Below, piece by piece: positions 3,001 to 20,106 of a DNA stretch of 21,129 nt (position 1 is the first letter of the stretch; each line of letters opens with the position of its first letter). The stretch is from a virus: IMG/VR virus record IMGVR_UViG_3300032322_000482, positions 1 through 21,129 of that record. One strand, given 5' to 3'. The notes under the pieces were generated by a model, which saw only the letters and a program-made list of their open reading frames with translations, did not search any database and had not been told where the DNA came from. The position numbers and the translations under genes were made by a program.

Positions 3001-4443
3001 TCCTACAGCTCAACACCGTTTATTATCGGAGTATCTGAATCATTATATACAGCTAAGTATTTAAGAATCACTTCTGATGGTACTACATTAAGTTTCAGAC
3101 AATCTGCTGATGGTGTAACGTTCAATGAATTTACTTCGGCGGGTATAAGTGAATTCTTAGCCGCTGGTCAGTTATCCGTCGGTATATGGGTCCAGAATGA
3201 TGTTGGTGGTGGTGTAGACCCGACTATATTTGTTGATTGGTTTAGATATGAAGCCGCAGCAACTGCGACTGCACCTAGACTGGAGAATATGGAAAATAGA
3301 ACAATACCCAGACTGTTCAATAAGTTGGGTAAAGCTCTTACTGTTGACGCTAATAATCAACTGATTTTCAGCACAAACAATTTCCTAGACACTAGTAACT
3401 TAACCATCATAACACCGATTGTTACACCAGCCGCTCTCGATGCAAATACGAACAATTACAATCCAACCGGGTTAGATAGTGCTCGTATTCTGAAGGTTAG
3501 TGCGTCTACTCATGTGTTGTTGACTGGTATCACTGCTCCATCCACTGACAATAGAATACTGACACTGATTAATGTTGGTTCATTTACAATCACTCTACGC
3601 GACCAGGCATACAGCACAGCATCTACGGCAGCCAATAGATTCAACATTGGTAATCCTGAGTATGCGTTAATTCCAGGCACTAGGATTGATTTAATCTATG
3701 ATTTACCCAGTGCAAGATGGATGTTGATTGATGTTTTCATTCCAACAAGGAACGCTCTATTAACGGTTCAAAGCAACTTCTGCGATTTCGTTGGTGGCAA
3801 CTCCGGACATCCCGATTTTGGCTTGCCTGTCTTTACTGGTACTTCTGCCGGTTGGAACGCTTCCGGTGCTAGCTATACAGGACGTGTTGGTGTATGCAAC
3901 GCAACTACTGGTACAACTGCTACTGGTAGATCCGGTTATGGTACATCGGGTGTTACTGGGTTATGGCATGACACATCGAAGTACATGCGATATTCTAGTG
4001 TTATTAGAAGTCAAGGTACATTGTCTGATGCAACCCATACATACTTTGTCTATGTCGGTTTCTTCGATTCATTCTCAGCAGAACCTACCGACGGTTTCTA
4101 CTTTAGATATGATTACGCAACTAACAGTGGTATATGGGAAATATTATCCCGTTCCAACAGCGTCACATTAAACACGGGTGCTACAAATACTACGGTAACT
4201 TATGCAATTAACACATGGTTTGCAATGGATTTAATCATATTACCGGACAGAAGTGGCGAAGCTTGGATAAATGGAACCTTAGTTGCAACTGTTGCTTCTG
4301 GGAACATGGTTGCTGCTGGTACAAGTAGAGCATTCGGTTATGGCACCAACATTCGTAAAACTGTTGGTTCAAGTGGAGCACGAGATATTGAATGTGATTC
4401 GGTGGAATTTACACAGATTAACTCACAAATCAGAACACGCTAA
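1..4443 (+). CDS. Large phage tail fibre / adhesin, 5'-truncated by the window
   Basis: The frame is open from base 1 with no stop, so the gene begins before the window; the GTG at 70 is internal. About 1480 residues are visible. The N-terminal ~300 residues resemble a fibre shaft or attachment domain with a His-rich stretch (ELHSCSFTRGLHAYHH). Residues ~345-475 hold repeats of the phage-fibre type SDWN...ILNKPTIP with GSYTDL.N.P spacers. Four copies of a second repeat (D-E-G...SI.FAGAGVTA...VTVTIPGGG) follow and interleave. Residues ~890-1085 (FDDEFYG...FVDWFRYE) and ~1260-1480 look like concanavalin/laminin-G-type beta-sandwiches, separated by a small domain common in phage fibres (ILTLINVGSFTITL...). 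It probably binds the host surface, and the lectin-like folds suggest glycan binding. Long tail fibre, side fibre or baseplate spike cannot be told apart from sequence alone. The stop codon lies inside the late promoter of the next gene. Confidence 0.8.
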   Translation, partial: PDVTISFNPANYTFTITPTGSTWVYWRNSVKYTVTGAKSVVLPGTPPAADEYFVYIDATDGTLSTATSPWLLTDINQNWVPVALIEWNDALTPKFQMYSELHSCSFTRGLHAYHHLTEGSKWTPGGGVLSGFTLATLTDAACTFGITSGTLYDEDIRHDIPGIADGNGSGTPYTIRYRSGATWAWVSSAVPFAYTPGGYINYDNAGTLTQANNSNGNFITTYLLATPNGYQIIQGQTQYTSVTTAEAENWSSLAKPITVLEFTVLYKFVWETRTSGSNLGRVRLTSVRDLSISPTGIGASGAGSVSASDEGVLLTNAVTSFNFVGNSLTATNSGGAVTVTGATLAPVATSGSYTDLSNQPSIPAAQVNSDWNASSGVAQILNKPTIPAAQVNSDWNSVSGVSQILNKPTIPAAQVNSDWNAVSGLAQILNKPTLFSGSYTDLTNKPTIPDAQVNSDWNAGSGVAQILNKPTIPSAISIIDESTTLTSTPTSIAFAGAGVTASNVGNAVTVTIPGGGGGGTGTNPQVVYNSTGYNISNSAVEALVGSVTLPANIVSTAGAGWLIDHNALYTNDTGATQTINYNVLVGSSSALSTTTGTISAAATERHTLVRLIVRRKTASTAYMLVQVFVSAASATLGNGAITATKEIDNVTFDWSVDNTINLRATLSSTSTSHTYNGKYTVSTFNGGYTLEEIQDAAAGMLTGGSHTGISFSYDDTNAIVNATVTGGSNVPVNLGTDNRTTTTIDVTSSTGTSATIPAATTSLAGLLTSADKTKLDGLGGGASIIAKDEGSNLTTNLASINFAGAGVTASTSGNDVTVTIPGGGNSIIAKDEGSNLTTALASINFAGAGVTASTSGNDVTVTIPGGGSSTSINGIATLSPIDMPPQSASAFDDEFYGYTLDSGWTLTNGTNAVLTVDNSWLKIRDVHNGGSGGLLTITRNNGTVSGNFTITARVDALLTQNNYQGCGLCLIDTGGKVVAFGMTADNSGRGMILNYWTTRTSYSSTPFIIGVSESLYTAKYLRITSDGTTLSFRQSADGVTFNEFTSAGISEFLAAGQLSVGIWVQNDVGGGVDPTIFVDWFRYEAAATATAPRLENMENRTIPRLFNKLGKALTVDANNQLIFSTNNFLDTSNLTIITPIVTPAALDANTNNYNPTGLDSARILKVSASTHVLLTGITAPSTDNRILTLINVGSFTITLRDQAYSTASTAANRFNIGNPEYALIPGTRIDLIYDLPSARWMLIDVFIPTRNALLTVQSNFCDFVGGNSGHPDFGLPVFTGTSAGWNASGASYTGRVGVCNATTGTTATGRSGYGTSGVTGLWHDTSKYMRYSSVIRSQGTLSDATHTYFVYVGFFDSFSAEPTDGFYFRYDYATNSGIWEILSRSNSVTLNTGATNTTVTYAINTWFAMDLIILPDRSGEAWINGTLVATVASGNMVAAGTSRAFGYGTNIRKTVGSSGARDIECDSVEFTQINSQIRTR
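1084..1413 (+). repeat. Four-copy SDWN/NKPTIP coding repeat, 72-bp period
   Basis: Copies begin at 1084, 1156, 1228 and 1342. The first three are exactly 72 bases apart. The fourth follows a 42-base insertion coding for TLFSGSYTDLTNKP. At DNA level copies 1 and 3 are nearly identical over their first ~35 bases (GCTGCGCAGGTTAATAGC), while copies 2 and 4 share a different codon version (GCTCAAGTCAACTC). The arrangement is therefore A-B-A-B. Confidence 0.9.
2347..2604 (+). repeat. Two tandem 129-bp coding repeats in the fibre gene
   Basis: Two back-to-back units (2347-2475 and 2476-2604) encode 43 residues each, SIIAKDEGSNLTT...VTVTIPGGG, with one core amino-acid change (N to A after TT) plus linker differences. 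Many silent third-base differences separate the copies, so selection holds the protein while the DNA drifts. Diverged members of the same repeat are seen near 916-1025 and 1429-1556. Confidence 0.9.
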
Positions 4444-4473: not shown

Positions 4474-5286
4474 ATGAAAAACCTAGATAATCTTAGATTA
4501 TATTTGAATGAAGCCATCGGCGTGAAATCCGGTATCAATGCAACTGGTATTGATACCGCAGTTAACAATATGACGCAATCGCATTCGCCTACCTTTGGTC
4601 AAAATAAAACGGAACATGCCGGTGCATTCGACCCTGAAGGTGGTGGACATGACCCAGAAGAGATTGCCAAAAAAAGTGGTATAGACATCGAAGAAGTGAA
4701 TAGACGTATCGTTATCGGTGTTAGAACGGAAATTGCTAAAGGTGTTACCGATAAAGCCAAAGCCCGTAAAATAGTAACAGATAAACTATTCAATAATATC
4801 GAAGCATATAGCAATTTGAGTTCACAGGAAAATAAAACCCCAGGTCAGAAAGGTGCCCCAGCCGGTGCTCCTCCCAGTGCAGCGGGTGCTCCGAAAAATA
4901 TGAATGAAGCTATTCTGGATAAGTTTATCAATATGGCTCGCCAGCCTATTCTGGAACAGAAAACAATTTATGATAATTTTTGCTACATGACCGAAGCTCA
5001 ACTAAAAGATTTCGGGATTAACCCCAACGAATCAGGAAGAGCATATACCGTTGTTTTCAAATTCCACGGTCAAACTAAAATTCTCAGTCTATTTTGGCCC
5101 GATACTCGCAGACCTACCAGGCAAGACATGCAAGCGTATGTCGAAGCATTGTATCCAATGGCAAAATTAATGTCATTCACAAAATACGAGAAGGGAGATC
5201 ACGGTTTAGGTCTTTTGTTAGTTCATAACAAGTCAGTAGGAAGAACCACTCACGCAAACACCAAAAATACTGACGACATGGGCTAG
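4474..5286 (+). CDS. Unassigned phage protein in the gp16 position, capsid-targeting-like N-terminus
   Basis: This is a 270-aa protein directly upstream of the large terminase. The start is set by TATAGGAG nine bases before the ATG. The slot is where T4 has gp16 (small terminase), but I see no gp16 similarity and it is much longer than T4 gp16 (164 aa). The N-terminus has Y-L-N-E-A at residues 10-14, like the capsid-targeting sequence of T4 internal proteins (MKTYQEFIAEA), which gp21 cuts after Glu. A second L/M-N-E-A lies near residue 147. Residues ~115-145 are an Ala/Pro/Gly-rich linker. The C-terminal ~125 residues look like a compact alpha/beta domain (YTVVFKFHGQTKILSLFWP). It could be a diverged small terminase or a head-packaged protein. 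It is cotranscribed with gp17, 8 bases apart. Confidence 0.7.
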   Translation: MKNLDNLRLYLNEAIGVKSGINATGIDTAVNNMTQSHSPTFGQNKTEHAGAFDPEGGGHDPEEIAKKSGIDIEEVNRRIVIGVRTEIAKGVTDKAKARKIVTDKLFNNIEAYSNLSSQENKTPGQKGAPAGAPPSAAGAPKNMNEAILDKFINMARQPILEQKTIYDNFCYMTEAQLKDFGINPNESGRAYTVVFKFHGQTKILSLFWPDTRRPTRQDMQAYVEALYPMAKLMSFTKYEKGDHGLGLLLVHNKSVGRTTHANTKNTDDMG

Positions 5287-14880: not shown

Positions 14881-15507
14881 TTAAGTCGATACGGTGTTCG
14901 AATCCGTTTCTTTGGCGGCTAAACCGCTTCGAATATCAAAATATGTATACTCGAAAGCAACGCCCGCCGATAAGAAACCTGGATTAGTGATGCGAGTATC
15001 AAAATCTGCACTACCTAAAGACACAGGAAAAGCGTCGTGATAAGTGATGCTGGCGACTGGGTTGTAATTACTTGATAGCACTTGTAAAGTAATCTCAGCA
15101 GTCTCACTATAAATCGTATCAAACTTGCTAACTCTTCTTCCGGTTGGTGGTTTCTTAACAATTGATTCACCAATCTTCGAGACTTGCTGGATTTCATCTA
15201 CGGATACCGCACCCGTCATATATCTCATCCAGTCATAAACCTGGATATAATTCTTAAGATTCTCGTCAACAAGAAATTCAACAACAAGGTTCTCAAAATT
15301 TAACTCATCTGCAACATGCGGAATTTTGTTTAGTCTGGTGGATTGCTGCGCCGAGCCGCATGATACCACTGGAATGTTAGCCCTAACGCAGAATAGAGGG
15401 ACGGCCATCACTTTTTTACAAATTAATAAAAAGCCATGGGGCATTAAAAAATTTCTATTTTCCAATGCTTGCAAATTGTTATTAGATGTAGTCGATTCAA
15501 ATGTCAT
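14881..15507 (-). CDS. gp19-like tail tube-family structural protein
   Basis: This 208-aa minus-strand protein converges on gp23. It follows the pattern of a tube-fold family frequent in T4-like phages: NFLMPHGFLLICKKV, then PLFCVRANIPVVS, a LNFENLVVEFLVDENLKNYIQVYDWMRYM core, and a C-terminal half with ITLQVLSSNYNPVASITYHDAFPVSLGSADFD ending in FEYTYFDIR. The last part mirrors the gp19 pattern of a W/F-P-x-S turn followed by a beta strand. It is probably a virion tube or tube-terminator protein. By cyanophage gene order this slot is often gp3 (tail completion), so that is the main alternative. The ribosome binding site is weak (GAGGG ~8 bases upstream). A minus-strand AATAAATA box lies 25 bases before the ATG. 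Confidence 0.75.
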   Translation of the reverse strand: MTFESTTSNNNLQALENRNFLMPHGFLLICKKVMAVPLFCVRANIPVVSCGSAQQSTRLNKIPHVADELNFENLVVEFLVDENLKNYIQVYDWMRYMTGAVSVDEIQQVSKIGESIVKKPPTGRRVSKFDTIYSETAEITLQVLSSNYNPVASITYHDAFPVSLGSADFDTRITNPGFLSAGVAFEYTYFDIRSGLAAKETDSNTVST

Positions 15508-15532
15508 AGGAATATCCCTCGTATTTCATGAA

Positions 15533-15540
15533 TATTTATT
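15533..15540 (-). promoter_or_regulatory. Minus-strand late promoter AATAAATA for the gp19-like gene
   Basis: Read on the minus strand, AATAAATA fits NATAAATA and contains the TAA stop of the HNH gene. The next ATG (15507) is 25 bases on. Confidence 0.6.
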
Positions 15541-16192
15541 CATCTCGAACAGGTGTATAATCTCCAAAATACTTAACTTCGGCTTCTCTACGAACTTTTA
15601 CGGCTTCTTCTTTAGTTGTGAAATATCCTAGATTTTCCTGTTTACCATCTACCGTGATGCGAGCACGCCATTTCTTACAATCTTCACGCCAACCTACGCC
15701 AATCTCACCAGAAGTGTTATTTTTCATCATTTTAGCTTTCTGCTTATTCTGCCGTGGCGTAATAAGTTGTAAATTACTCAGAAGATTGTTCGATGGATTA
15801 CTTTTTTTATGGTCTACGACCATTCCTTCTGGAATTGGACCATGTTCCAATGCCCAGATGAAACAATGTAGATATCTTTCATCGTTAGAACCTTCTTCGA
15901 CGTATCTGACGTAATACCCATTACTATCTGAGTACCATGACCCAGCTTCAATAATTTCCTTTTCATACTTCGGCTCAGAACCTTCTGGAGCTTTGTCACG
16001 TTCGAATTTTCTACCAGAAGTTGTAGCACCATTTTTCAAATCGCTGTTCCTTACAATTCCAGTACATTCAAACTCGCTACAATAACATAAACAAGCCGAA
16101 CATCCGTAACCACCAATCGTATGATGGTTTTCCAATACTGTCAGTGTGCCAAAAGTTGCACCAATTTCTATAAGCTTTCTAGGTCTACCCAT
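15536..16192 (-). CDS. Free-standing HNH-AP2 homing endonuclease
   Basis: This 218-aa protein has three parts. Residues ~8-60 (GATFGTLTVLE...C-S-A-C-L-C-Y-C...SDLKNGATTSG) match the degenerate zinc-ribbon-like N-terminal domain common in phage HNH proteins. Residues ~105-150 are the HNH nuclease: H109 in LHCFIWA, D127-H128 in VVDH, N136/N140 and the closing PRQN. Residues ~160-212 (SGEIGVGWREDCKKWRARI...LGYFTTKEEAV) are an AP2 DNA-binding domain. Such genes spread by cutting alleles that lack them. The start is MGRPRK with AGGAG 12 bases upstream, reached from an overlapping sigma-70/late promoter. The last TAA forms part of the promoter of the downstream gene. It appears intact. Confidence 0.93.
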   Translation of the reverse strand: MGRPRKLIEIGATFGTLTVLENHHTIGGYGCSACLCYCSEFECTGIVRNSDLKNGATTSGRKFERDKAPEGSEPKYEKEIIEAGSWYSDSNGYYVRYVEEGSNDERYLHCFIWALEHGPIPEGMVVDHKKSNPSNNLLSNLQLITPRQNKQKAKMMKNNTSGEIGVGWREDCKKWRARITVDGKQENLGYFTTKEEAVKVRREAEVKYFGDYTPVRDE

Positions 16193-16195
16193 TTT

Positions 16196-16203
16196 TATAA
16201 ATA
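16196..16203 (+). promoter_or_regulatory. Plus-strand TATAAATA late promoter pointing at a terminator
   Basis: TATAAATA lies just outside the HNH start codon but faces the opposite way. No plus-strand gene begins before the terminator 20 bases on, so any product would be a ~50-nt RNA antisense to the HNH leader. Confidence 0.45.
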
Positions 16204-16222
16204 CTCCTGATTGGTTTTGTAC

Positions 16223-16261
16223 TGGGGAGAAGTGTTTTCGGCACTCTCCCCATTTTTATTT
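16223..16261 (+). terminator. Intrinsic terminator on the plus strand, antisense to the HNH leader
   Basis: TGGGGAGA (16223-16230) pairs with TCTCCCCA (16245-16252). After a bulged A the stem extends by GTG/CAC around the loop TTTTCGG. The tail is TTTTTATTT. On the minus strand there is no T-tract after the stem, so it terminates rightward transcription only. On the minus strand the same stem forms a hairpin in the HNH 5' leader. Confidence 0.8.
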
Positions 16262-16289
16262 AGTATATCACGCGGCTGAACCTTGTCAA
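16257..16289 (-). promoter_or_regulatory. Overlapping sigma-70 and late promoter for the HNH gene
   Basis: On the minus strand TTGACA (16289-16284) is followed after 16 bases by TATACT (16267-16262). The late box CTAAATA (16263-16257) shares its first two bases with that -10, reading TATACTAAATA. Host polymerase and gp55 polymerase could both start here. Confidence 0.7.
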
Positions 16290-16293
16290 GACC

Positions 16294-16647
16294 CTAAATG
16301 TCATATGACGGGCCTTTTCCGAAGAGTAACTGTAGTTGTCTGTATGCGTTCTGGAATGTGTCGTCAGCCATTTGCTTATCGCTGGTTGATAAATATCTGT
16401 ATCTGAATTTCGAGTGACCTGTGTATTGGCCCCAGTATTCGTGAAGGTCTTCACATAATATAGAATAGCCGGGTTTAATATATCTGGGAGTTAATCGAAA
16501 CTTCTCGCTCTTACCACCACACGGAATAAATACACGCACACGGTAATATCTGATACCGGCCTTTGTATCTTCGGTATACACCATTACATACGGACTATTT
16601 TCATCATTTTGATTTAAGAGTAAACACCGAAAATCTACAATATCCAT
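16294..16647 (-). CDS. Hypothetical 117-aa protein divergent from uvsW
   Basis: I do not recognise this protein. The ATG at 16647 (MDIVDFRCLLLNQ) is chosen because a minus-strand CTAAATA ends 21 bases upstream; a longer reading would run back into uvsW. The product is soluble and mixed in charge, with several predicted beta strands (YVMVYTED, RYYRVRVFIP, KFRYRYLS) and a C-terminal helix (ADDTFQNAYRQLQLLF). No signal peptide or membrane segment is visible, and its two cysteines form no metal motif. The ribosome binding site is weak. The gene stops just before the HNH promoter. Its placement in the late, minus-strand island suggests a minor virion or assembly role, but that is only context. Confidence 0.7.
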   Translation of the reverse strand: MDIVDFRCLLLNQNDENSPYVMVYTEDTKAGIRYYRVRVFIPCGGKSEKFRLTPRYIKPGYSILCEDLHEYWGQYTGHSKFRYRYLSTSDKQMADDTFQNAYRQLQLLFGKGPSYDI

Positions 16648-16667
16648 GGGTTGCACCAACTCTGTTG

Positions 16668-16683
16668 TATTTAGTCCTAAATA
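16668..16683. promoter_or_regulatory. Back-to-back divergent late promoters
   Basis: TATTTAG (16668-16674) and CTAAATA (16677-16683) form a perfect inverted repeat separated by two bases. The left box reads leftward to the 117-aa gene and the right box reads rightward to uvsW (ATG 16710). Confidence 0.75.
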
Positions 16684-16709
16684 GTATTGAAATATTTGAG
16701 ATGTTAAAA

Positions 16710-18152
16710 ATGACTGATATCTTAATCCGGAAGCACAATGAAGCATATATTAATGTAGAAGCTTCATGCGAGATTCTGAATGAATTGAGTCAGTATTTTT
16801 CCTTCAAGACGGAAAATGCTCAATTTATGAAAAAACATCGTAAAGGGTGGGATGGTATCACCCGATTGTTCAATAGACGGAACAATACAATATATGCCGG
16901 TCTTCTCTTCAGGATTTGTAACTGGGCCGAAAAGTGCGGCTATACTTATGAATTCGTAGACAATGAATTCTATGGTATGCCATTCGAAGAAGATGAGATG
17001 ATTACCGAATATGGCTGTAAATTCTACATGAAGAAATTAGCTAGCCATATCACACCTAGAAGCTATCAGCTTAGCTCTGTATATGAAGCATTGCGATATA
17101 ATCGCAAAACAATCATATCAGCAACCGCTAGTGGCAAGAGCTTTATCATTTATACGATTGTTAGGTATCATGCTCAGTATGATAGAAAGATTCTTATTGT
17201 AGTTCCGCGTGTAGACCTCGTTAACCAGTTAACCAACCAGTTTGTGGGATATGGGTGGGATGAGAAACATATCCATAAAGTTTCGGGAGGATTCGAGAAG
17301 GATACCGACAGATTAGTGACCATCTCCACATGGCAATCTATCACCGAACAGAATGCTTCCTGGTATGACCAATTTGATTGTATTATGTGTGATGAAACTC
17401 ACCAGGCTAAATCCAAAGAACTCAAGAAAGTATTCTCAAGCTGTAGAGAAGCAAAATATAGATACGGATTCACTGCCACTCTAAGTAATGGTTCAAAGCT
17501 GGATGCCATTGTAATCGAAGGGTTGTTTGGTCCAGTCTACCGAGCAGTGAATACTGCCGATATGATTGCTGGTGGTAATGCCTCACAACTCGCCATTCAA
17601 GTGCAAGTGATGAGACATTCCAAACCCGTAAGTATCACGCAATACGAGGATGAAGTCAAATACTTATGTAATTGTGAGCCTAGGAATAATTACTTAATCA
17701 ATCTCGTAAAGAATCTTCCTGGTAACACGATTGTGTTATTCGACAGAATCGATGAACATGCCATTCCATTCTTTCATCGATTGAATAATGAAACTACTAC
17801 CCCATGTCACCTGATTCATGGTAAAATTGCAAATCGAGATAAGATTTATGAGATAATTAGAAAATCCCATAACAATATTCTAATAGCTTCTTATGGGTGT
17901 TGTTCCACTGGTATCGACGTACCTAATGTCGATAATATGGTATTTGCTTCCTCCGGTAAGTCATCTATCAAAGTGATGCAATCCATTGGTAGATCACTTC
18001 GCCTAGCAGAAGGTAAAGAAATAGCAACAGTCTATGATATTGCTGATCATATTAATGGTGGAAGTAATTACACATTCCAACACTTACACAAAAGATTGGA
18101 ATTGTATAACAATGAAGACTTACCATACGAGATAGAAGATATCGATTTATAG
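16710..18152 (+). CDS. uvsW: UvsW-type recombination/branch-migration helicase
   Basis: This 480-aa superfamily 2 helicase matches T4 UvsW, which unwinds R-loops and branched DNA and shifts replication from origins to recombination. The N-terminal domain (YINVEASCEILNELSQYFSF...KGWDGITRLF) aligns with the T4 start. Walker A is ATASGKS at 138-144, the DEAD-box variant is DETH at 228-231, motif III is TAT near 255, and motif VI is QSIGRSLR near the C-terminus. The longer frame from TTG 16563 is rejected because it overlaps the divergent gene and its promoter. ATG 16701 is an alternative start. The gene is under a late promoter, as in T4, where uvsW is also late. Confidence 0.95.
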   Translation: MTDILIRKHNEAYINVEASCEILNELSQYFSFKTENAQFMKKHRKGWDGITRLFNRRNNTIYAGLLFRICNWAEKCGYTYEFVDNEFYGMPFEEDEMITEYGCKFYMKKLASHITPRSYQLSSVYEALRYNRKTIISATASGKSFIIYTIVRYHAQYDRKILIVVPRVDLVNQLTNQFVGYGWDEKHIHKVSGGFEKDTDRLVTISTWQSITEQNASWYDQFDCIMCDETHQAKSKELKKVFSSCREAKYRYGFTATLSNGSKLDAIVIEGLFGPVYRAVNTADMIAGGNASQLAIQVQVMRHSKPVSITQYEDEVKYLCNCEPRNNYLINLVKNLPGNTIVLFDRIDEHAIPFFHRLNNETTTPCHLIHGKIANRDKIYEIIRKSHNNILIASYGCCSTGIDVPNVDNMVFASSGKSSIKVMQSIGRSLRLAEGKEIATVYDIADHINGGSNYTFQHLHKRLELYNNEDLPYEIEDIDL

Positions 18153-18176
18153 CTTCTAAAACCTTGTACAAGTTCT

Positions 18177-18184
18177 TATAAATA
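18177..18184 (+). promoter_or_regulatory. TATAAATA late promoter after uvsW
   Basis: An exact T4 late consensus lies 25 bases after the uvsW stop. It reads into the 330-base region that holds inverted repeats, two short ORFs and a possible pseudoknot. Confidence 0.65.
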
Positions 18185-18224
18185 ACCATTCATTCTCACA
18201 CTTATAGTATTTCATCTTATCTGC

Positions 18225-18297
18225 TGCTTGTCAAGGGGTTTTACAAATATTGTAACAAATCTTTACAAAGCTATCTTAGAAAGAGACTTGACAAGCA
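18225..18297. repeat. 11-bp inverted repeat with outward-facing TTGACA boxes
   Basis: TGCTTGTCAAG (18225-18235) and CTTGACAAGCA (18287-18297) are perfect reverse complements 51 bases apart. Each holds a TTGACA pointing outward. Candidate -10s are weak: AATACT at 17 bases leftward and TAAGAT at 16 bases rightward. The centre contains TTACAA-ATA-TTGTAA (18241-18255), a smaller operator-like palindrome. It may be a divergent promoter/operator, a structured RNA or an origin-like site. Confidence 0.6.
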
Positions 18298-18313
18298 AGC
18301 TATAGGAGCTAAG

Positions 18314-18346
18314 ATGCACAGTATACCACCAGTCCTTCCAGGATGA
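18314..18346 (+). CDS. Candidate 10-codon leader peptide
   Basis: The ATG is preceded by TATAGGAGCTAAG, almost the same initiation region as gp18 (TATAGGAGCTAAT). It encodes MHSIPPVLPG and stops at TGA. Three prolines, including a Pro-Pro pair, could slow ribosomes. The stop overlaps the ATG of a second short frame (ATGA) and lies within the possible pseudoknot. It could also be the remnant of a decayed gene, and the peptide may not be functional. Confidence 0.4.
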   Translation: MHSIPPVLPG

Positions 18347-18383
18347 CCAGGAAGAAGGGTATAACATCAAACTGGTGTCATCC
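18327..18383 (+). ncRNA. Possible H-type pseudoknot in the leader RNA
   Basis: CACCAGT (18327-18333) pairs with ACTGGTG (18371-18377), and GGATGA (18341-18346) pairs with TCATCC (18378-18383). The order is that of an H-type pseudoknot with directly abutting stems. The loops are 7 and 24 nt. A competing hairpin CTTCC-A-GG/CC-A-GGAAG also exists, so a switch between folds is conceivable. No known RNA family is recognised. Confidence 0.4.
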
Positions 18384-18459
18384 AGCACAGAAGCACATAG
18401 GAGGGTTTCTAGGGGATATTGTAAGGGGTTTTGCTCCATCGCACGAGAACGCTAAATAG
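18343..18459 (+). CDS. Candidate 38-aa basic peptide coupled to the leader ORF
   Basis: This frame starts at the ATG that overlaps the leader stop (ATGA), the usual form of translational coupling. It encodes 38 residues beginning MTRKKGITSNWC and ending APSHENAK, with a short hydrophobic part (GGFLGDIVRGF). It has no ribosome binding site of its own beyond GG. The stop TAG is inside CTAAATAG, the promoter of the next gene. I do not recognise it, and it may be chance. Confidence 0.35.
   Translation: MTRKKGITSNWCHPAQKHIGGFLGDIVRGFAPSHENAK
18452..18458 (+). promoter_or_regulatory. Late promoter CTAAATA before the acidic protein gene
   Basis: CTAAATA lies 24 bases before the ATG at 18483. Only a poor ribosome binding site (TTGGA) is present in the short leader. 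Confidence 0.7.
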
Positions 18460-18482
18460 TAACGAAAGTATTGGATAAAAAA

Positions 18483-18950
18483 ATGGCTCAACAGTATTCG
18501 AATTATCACCATTACCTCGTGGAAGCTGCTACCGCTATTCTTTCCCACGATCAGTATAGATATGTTAGCGAAAAGAAAGAATGCGACAAAGCTGAGAAGT
18601 ACGAGAAAGACGCCAAAGAAGGCGAAGAAGGAGAAGATGAAGAGGAAGATGAGAAAGCAGCTAAGCTGCCTTTCCCCGTTAAAGAATCCTACTTCGCTAA
18701 TCTGATCGGTGTTCTGGCCGAAGGCGAGTATATTGTCACCAAGGAAGATTTGCTTGCACTGGCTGAAGCAGCTCTTGCTATGATTGAAGAAGGTGAAGGG
18801 TACACTCCCGATGCCGACGCTAAAGCTCGTATCAAAGACTACTACACCCGCAAAGAACCCAAGAAAGAAAAGCTTTCTGGTAGCCGTGAAGGTAGAAACC
18901 TCATGTTCGGTAAAGAGACTCCTAAGACTCATTGGGAGACTTACAAGTAA
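18483..18950 (+). CDS. Acidic hypothetical protein with capsid-targeting-like N-terminus
   Basis: This 155-aa protein is not recognised. The ATG at 18483 is preferred to a TTG at 18471. Its start includes Y-H-H-Y-L-V-E-A (residues 8-15), which fits the Y-x-x-F/Y-I/L-x-E-A pattern of T4 internal-protein capsid-targeting sequences (MKTYQEFIAEA). gp21 cleavage after Glu14 is therefore predicted. Residues ~38-64 are a run of Glu, Asp and Lys (EGEEGEDEEEDE). A helical Ala/Leu/Glu region follows (KEDLLALAEAALAMIEEGEG), and the C-terminus is basic (RKEPKKEKLSGSREGR). The late promoter and the motif together suggest a head-packaged or prohead core protein, which is an inference. Codons are well chosen (many C-ending), hinting at high expression. 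Confidence 0.75.
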   Translation: MAQQYSNYHHYLVEAATAILSHDQYRYVSEKKECDKAEKYEKDAKEGEEGEDEEEDEKAAKLPFPVKESYFANLIGVLAEGEYIVTKEDLLALAEAALAMIEEGEGYTPDADAKARIKDYYTRKEPKKEKLSGSREGRNLMFGKETPKTHWETYK

Positions 18951-18976: not shown

Positions 18977-19017
18977 TGGGTCGTATGGTTGACATACGAC
19001 CCATCTTGTTTTATAAT
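18977..19017 (+). promoter_or_regulatory. Consensus sigma-70 promoter with -35 in a hairpin tip
   Basis: TTGACA (18989-18994), 17 bases, then TATAAT (19012-19017): a perfect match. TGGGTCGTATG (18977-18987) and CATACGACCCA (18993-19003) form an 11-bp perfect stem with loop GTTGA, so the -35 starts in the loop. The stem could end the upstream transcript, serve as an operator, or both. Confidence 0.9.
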
Positions 19018-19047
19018 GGTTTCAGTAATTTACTGAGGTTATTTTTA

Positions 19048-20065: not shown

Positions 20066-20106
20066 TGTAGGCTAGTGGTTGACACTAGTCTACATTGTGC
20101 TATAAT
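20066..20106 (+). promoter_or_regulatory. Sigma-70 promoter of gene 55 with the same hairpin layout
   Basis: TTGACA (20079-20084), 16 bases, then TATAAT (20101-20106). TGTAGGCTAGTG (20066-20077) and CACTAGTCTACA (20083-20094) form a 12-bp stem with one G-T pair and loop GTTGA. The stem sequence differs from the one at 18977 but the geometry and loop are the same. Confidence 0.9.

Follow-up and report, generated by a model that had tools for sequence, protein, structure and literature searches.

A putative back-to-back promoter region between uvsW and an acidic protein gene in a T4-like virus fragment

Analysis of an IMG/VR virus fragment of approximately 21 kb (IMGVR_UViG_3300032322_000482, positions 1 to 21,129; the whole of this 21,129-nucleotide stretch is termed the window here) brought out an unusually long intergenic segment between uvsW and an acidic protein gene, spanning 18153-18482 with no strand assigned, which is likely to be a regulatory region. 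Its best reading, to which a probability of roughly 0.45 is given, is a putative pair of back-to-back sigma70 (early) promoters around an AT-rich centre of TTACAA-type repeats, together with a late promoter in front of the acidic protein gene. The segment had been described in a sequence-only reading as a layered regulatory or RNA locus; the regulatory half of that description is retained in the form of two outward sigma70-like promoters and the late promoter of the acidic gene, while the RNA half is not supported. The features listed in that reading are indeed present and the gap that holds them is unusual, although most of them lie near chance and the small genes and RNA structure it invoked did not gain support.

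PHROG matches were obtained in the window for terminase, portal, scaffold, major head protein, a tail-tube-like protein (minus strand), helicase and late sigma factor, and Synechococcus phages were nearest for both the uvsW helicase (~44% identity) and the portal (~56% identity), because of which the uncultured phage is judged to be a divergent T4-like phage of cyanophage type. Fairly close relatives are limited to L174 (46% identity in uvsW) and L003 (64% identity in the head protein, with an acidic-like gene after gp23); a contig with an identical head gene, L002, stops short of 18153-18482. Between gp23 and uvsW, the minus strand of the window (14881-16746) holds the tail-tube-like gene, an HNH endonuclease gene and an ORF of no known function, at an interval where the plus strand of cyanophages carries gp3 and uvsY; uvsY itself was not recognised in the window. 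The acidic protein gene downstream of the segment (18483-18950, plus strand) has a relative in L174, and its product is one of a small unnamed family that has a single stretch of ~33 residues in common (window 18483-18950, L003 1380-2366, L174 1411-1905), whose members lie near gp23 in one relative and beside uvsW in another. No convincing relative of the acidic protein was obtained from 50,697 phage records.

The gap was measured by one common rule, from uvsW to the next ORF of at least 80 codons, in loci where uvsW is followed by 900 nt of sequence or more (n=172). It amounts to 318 nt in the window and to 71 nt or less in 171 of the 172 related loci, which strongly confirms the earlier remark that such a gap is unusual in a packed block. 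The remaining locus is T4, where no ORF of at least 80 codons was found on that strand after uvsW, because the next gene is convergent. Six cyanophages examined have the order uvsW, T4-GC139 (annotated as 'methylamine utilization' or hypothetical) and gp55, with a nearly zero gap after uvsW. In L174, uvsW is followed after 29 nt by the gene related to the acidic one (51% over 33 residues, E 6e-5), and a GATAAATAA late promoter is positioned at the stop of uvsW. Since only 29 nt separate the two genes there, about 300 nt of the uvsW-acidic gap in the window look extra, the whole segment being ~300 nt longer than in relatives. The segment is absent from L174, DNA and protein searches of the region against the 50,697 phage records brought up nothing convincing, an IMG/VR pattern scan for the exact left arm of its inverted repeat with part of the centre returned 0 matches, and no tRNA was detected by ARAGORN.

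Within this segment, a perfect 11-bp inverted repeat is formed by 18225-18235 and 18287-18297 (given on the plus strand), whose arms stand 51 nt apart and contain CTTGTCAAG (18227-18235) and CTTGACAAG (18287-18295), respectively. Each arm carries a TTGACA box, leftward at 18234-18229 and rightward at 18288-18293, and the two are thus outward-facing, just as had been reported; inverted repeats of at least 11 bp were encountered in 6 of 1000 shuffles of the region. The inner palindrome noted earlier (TTACAA at 18241, TTGTAA at 18250) is also there, within the AT-rich centre of TTACAA-type repeats at 18240-18269 (plus strand). The palindrome CTTGWCAAG is found three times in the window as against 0.16 expected, one copy being positioned at the -35 of the HNH promoter. 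The inverted repeat, CTTGWCAAG and TATAGGAG, whose other plus-strand copies are all ribosome sites of genes, stand out, most other named features being near chance.

The two outward boxes were evaluated by a sigma70 scan with general weights as used in the literature. The leftward sigma70-like promoter (18206-18234, minus strand; TTGACA-17-AATACT with a TG(A) extension) ranks fifth among all sites of the window, with 0.45 expected per strand at that score; set against TTGACA, a 16-18 nt spacer and either TATAAT or an extended -10, it shows 6/6 at the -35, 17 nt, 4/6 at the -10 and the TG. Its predicted start near 18199 would be antisense to the end of uvsW. The rightward candidate for a sigma70-like promoter (18288-18315, plus strand; TTGACA-16-TAAGAT; predicted start ~18322) shows 6/6 at the -35, 16 nt and 4/6 at the -10 with no TG, and ranks twelfth with 3.0 expected per strand. 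The three best sigma70 sites of the window are all intergenic, before gp55 (20079), the Gly-rich gene (18989) and the HNH gene (16289, minus). The window contains a single divergent pair scoring at this level, and one or more turned up in 2 of 60 shuffled windows; 17 such pairs were counted in 248 T4-like loci (1.8 Mb), those of L034, L071 and L174 being located before gp55.

Some observations speak against this reading: both -10 boxes have two mismatches each, a simple sigma70 scan gave 3 sites in 1 kb vs 2.6 in shuffles, and there is no gene immediately to the left that would need the leftward promoter. The overlap of the rightward -10 with the ribosome-site-like TATAGGAGCTAAGATG speaks for another role of these bases. 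Nor is the layout conserved, no other CTTGNCAAG pair within 120 nt having been found in the 248 T4-like loci, and the promoter reading is drawn from a single sequence.

The late promoter of the acidic gene, CTAAATA at 18452-18458 (plus strand), precedes the acidic ATG by 31 nt, a spacing similar to that of the late promoters of gp18, gp20, gp23 and the gene at 4474. A further late-promoter-like motif, TATAAATA at 18177-18184 (plus strand), had been proposed as a promoter; the motif exists, but no start codon follows it at the usual 28-46 nt downstream. It arose in 17 of 1000 shuffles of the region, is present three times on the plus strand of the window vs 1.26 expected, and is possibly there by chance. 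As a separate observation, the TAAATA core overlaps the stop codon of the upstream gene at 4441, 9599, 11410 and 12248, and does so as well at the end of a 38-codon ORF (18453).

If the back-to-back promoters are active, early transcription from ~18322 would proceed rightward into the acidic and Gly-rich genes, and transcription from ~18199 would run leftward and antisense into the 3' end of uvsW, although the antisense nature of this predicted transcript is conjecture. A regulator could bind the AT-rich TTACAA centre between the promoters and affect both, and control would pass to the late promoter at 18452 after gp55 has been produced. Both short ORFs, like the pseudoknot, would most likely be by-products of such an arrangement.

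The same layout is found in other phages, matching their back-to-back sigma70 promoters, and the earlier verdict that the region fits no known element was therefore too strong. An IMG/VR pattern scan for TTGTCAAG, TTTACAA and TTGACAA in that order, with no -10 specified, yielded at least 119 loci and 61 distinct sites. Among the matches listed, a near-TATAAT box at 15-17 nt outward on both sides was observed at 19 of the 61 distinct sites and at 0 of 61 for each of five wrong spacings; the other 42 of the 61 listed are without -10 boxes on both sides, and a run of 22 listed sites of equal 65-nt length constitutes one sequence family without two-sided -10 boxes. The closest likeness among the matches listed is L253, where perfect TTGACA-16-TATAAT promoters point in both directions from a centre TTTACAAATCTTTACAAA between diverging ORFs. 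L253 and 18 further distinct sites among those listed share with the window the TTGTCAAG / TTTACAA / TTGACAA order and the outward -35 boxes, but have near-consensus -10 boxes on both sides where those of the window are weaker. For the composite pattern, four extra IMG/VR matches are about the number put down to chance (an estimate, not a computed value), and only L253 is alike beyond the pattern. Taken at the level of sequence, the layout is a recurring, ordinary way of building divergent promoters. In another phage (L272 1880-2800, L304 9650-10290), a row of TTTACAA-TTGACAA-N-TATAAT promoters was also seen, with two back-to-back modules 580 nt apart.

Published control schemes offer a comparable background. 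In the sections of PMC2984593 drawn on here, cyanomyoviruses are modelled with early sigma70 and late NATAAATA promoters, sometimes both before one gene, and the control of cyanophage early and middle genes is described as unclear; further background is contained in parts of PMC5780444 and PMC3037559. The T4-like cyanomyoviruses S-PM2 and Syn9 covered in those sections resemble the window in having sigma70-like and nTAAATA boxes, both before one gene, whereas the two sigma70-like promoters of the window are placed back to back, one in each arm of an inverted repeat, and between genes of the same direction (PMC2984593). Antisense transcription in a T4-like cyanophage likewise has a counterpart in the CfrI antisense RNA of S-PM2 presented there; CfrI, however, was observed and is antisense to psbA and a homing endonuclease gene, while the uvsW antisense RNA of the window is predicted from its sequence (PMC2984593).

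A possible explanation, though on balance an unlikely one, is that the segment is leftover intergenic DNA, the debris of a lost or degraded gene, in which the motifs are mostly there by chance and only the late promoter at 18452 would be working. The near-chance frequencies of TATAAATA, the pseudoknot and the single promoter matches agree with this, as does the presence of another gene, T4-GC139, at this place in cyanophages, and two short ORFs that are non-coding-like and yet keep a good ribosome site are what a decayed gene might leave. However, the inverted repeat (6/1000), the three CTTGWCAAG (0.16 expected) and the divergent pair (2/60) are together improbable by chance, and searches for a relative of such debris, at the protein or DNA level, were negative.

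The short ORFs themselves were assessed by codon usage. The ribosome-site-like TATAGGAG and a 10-codon ORF (MHSIPPVLPG) occupy 18301-18343 (plus strand), the ORF itself extending over 18314-18343 and overlapping by ATGA a 38-codon ORF at 18343-18459 (plus strand). The initiation site had been called gp18-like, and TATAGGAGCTAAGATG at 18301-18316 does resemble the TATAGGAGCTAATATG of gp18; TATAGGAG occurs four times on the plus strand, and the other 3/3 are ribosome sites of genes. The proposed leader ORF and its ATGA-coupled partner can thus be located, but the codon usage of both is non-coding-like. The score of the 38-codon ORF is below that of 99.6% of gene segments and sits among the out-of-frame controls, that of the 10-codon ORF is lower still, and those of the acidic, Gly-rich and HNH genes are gene-like. 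With no Pfam or PHROG match and no convincing tblastn match in the 50,697 phage records, the 38-codon ORF has neither gene-like codon usage nor a homologue, and 18343-18459 is probably not a gene.

These ORFs enter into an RNA leader reading, close to the idea first put forward for the region and unlikely in our estimation, in which a transcript from TATAAATA (18177) would fold such that a long inverted-repeat stem masks the ribosome site belonging to the 10-codon ORF, itself coupled to the 38-codon ORF. The stem is able to pair with ATAGGA or TAAGATG, the three remaining plus-strand copies of TATAGGAG are all at gene starts, and the hand-picked stretch 18215-18310 folds on the plus strand with a z of -3.4 (0 of 200 shuffles), as compared with -0.9 on the minus strand for 18186-18310. 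Against this, a scan of 1684 windows placed the 100-nt pieces of the region at a z of only -2.5 to -2.7, behind many coding windows, and folding is hence unexceptional window-wide. Rfam 15 gave 0 matches above gathering score in the window and 4 low-scoring ones at E up to 10, none of a bacterial family. The crossing pairings at 18326-18383 do permit the pseudoknot that had been suggested, but crossing helices formed in 20 of 500 shuffles (4%). Moreover, both ORFs are non-coding-like by codon score, no relatives of the region were found for covariation, and TATAAATA lies ~135 nt from the ATG as against 28-46 nt for late promoters here. With no Rfam match, unremarkable folding, such a pseudoknot frequency and non-coding-like ORFs, the notion of an RNA locus is not supported.

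The AT-rich centre was further compared with HLR1, the site of the cyanobacterial regulator RpaB, which has the pattern KTTACAWW-NN-KTTACAWW. The window stretch 18252-18269 is one mismatch from this strict pattern, and the two share TTACAA-type direct repeats ~10 bp apart, upstream of -35 boxes. It is conceivable, but rather improbable, that the centre would be an HLR1-type site bound by RpaB of the host, so that the promoters respond to its light or redox state. In favour of such a site, the nearest relatives by portal and uvsW are cyanophages, an exact HLR1 match is present in the relative L003 at 2494-2511, before a tail-tube-like gene, and TAACAAATCTTTACAA (in 18252-18269) resembles HLR1 sites of Synechocystis such as TAACAAAACTTTATAA and TTACAATCGTTTACAA (PMC6331805, Table 1). 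The L003 HLR1 stretch is also the best DNA match to the region in related loci, tied with two others at E 0.47 in 1.8 Mb, and this likeness can be taken as suggestive only. The scans do not bear out HLR1 as a general device: an exact match was found in 1 of 18 records and in 0 of 10 named phage genomes, and the site was not found in the named cyanophages searched; 12 sites with at most one mismatch occur in 1.8 Mb of T4-like loci and a background therefore exists; and the composite pattern gave 19 matches in the GTDB genome collection, 1 of them in Nostoc, with no cyanobacterial enrichment. TTTACAA is also found between divergent promoters of phages without known host, and in a literature survey covering HLR1, RpaB and cyanophages no paper, judged by its listing, connected the site with cyanophages.

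The uvsW helicase ends origin-dependent replication in T4. A two-way light/redox switch may be imagined, in which RpaB or a similar OmpR-type regulator on the TTACAA repeats would balance the rightward early transcript against the uvsW-antisense RNA and hold the helicase back until the late phase; we would be surprised to see this elaboration borne out.

It is very improbable that the segment represents a displaced copy of the gp55 promoter region, which normally occupies the uvsW-gp55 interval and would have stayed in place upon the arrival of the acidic and Gly-rich genes. To its credit, gp55 promoters in the group have CTTGTCAAG as their conserved -35-like element, and in L034, L071 and L174 gp55 is preceded by TGTCAAG, an AT-rich stretch, TTGACA and a -10. 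A profile of 93 such regions, however, finds L034 (E 1.5e-4) and picks up the window region only as fragments (E ~1 to 3), despite the likeness by eye, and the segment was not placed among the gp55 promoters. Independently of the segment, a strongly conserved promoter region before gp55 was noticed in T4-like cyanophage contigs (e.g. L085 5882-5967, L100 3631-3715), with the order of an element like CTTCAACCCTAACAAAGGTATTCTAC, ~14 nt, YTGTCAA(G), 13-20 nt and a -10 box; the pattern was recovered in 137 of the loci scanned, 93 of them distinct. CTTGTCAAG appears 66 times on the plus strand vs 9.5 in shuffles, and a crude count of TTGTCAAG at 64 of 177 projected gp55 starts is too low, many of these starts having been projected into the gene upstream. 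In the window, the two strong promoters of the Gly-rich gene (18977-19018) and gp55 (20067-20105) each have TTGACA in a palindrome, perfect or nearly so, whose arms differ between the two while the 5-nt centre is GTTGA in both; these may be operators, and an overlapping terminator is possible at 18977-19018.

Lastly, the 11-bp terminal-type inverted repeat around 51 nt, with its outward -35 TTGACA boxes, could recall a small MITE-like mobile element, but this is extremely improbable, as no direct target repeat flanks the inverted repeat and no second copy exists in the window or in the 248 related loci.

Overall, we present the dense segment 18153-18482 as a modest, ordinary regulatory region that is unusually placed, and its features have been turned into a prediction of two transcription starts. 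Should the antisense branch be real, it would give T4-like phages a means of timing their uvsW expression. Mapping an early promoter pair together with a regulator site would contribute to understanding the early and middle gene control of cyanophages (PMC2984593).
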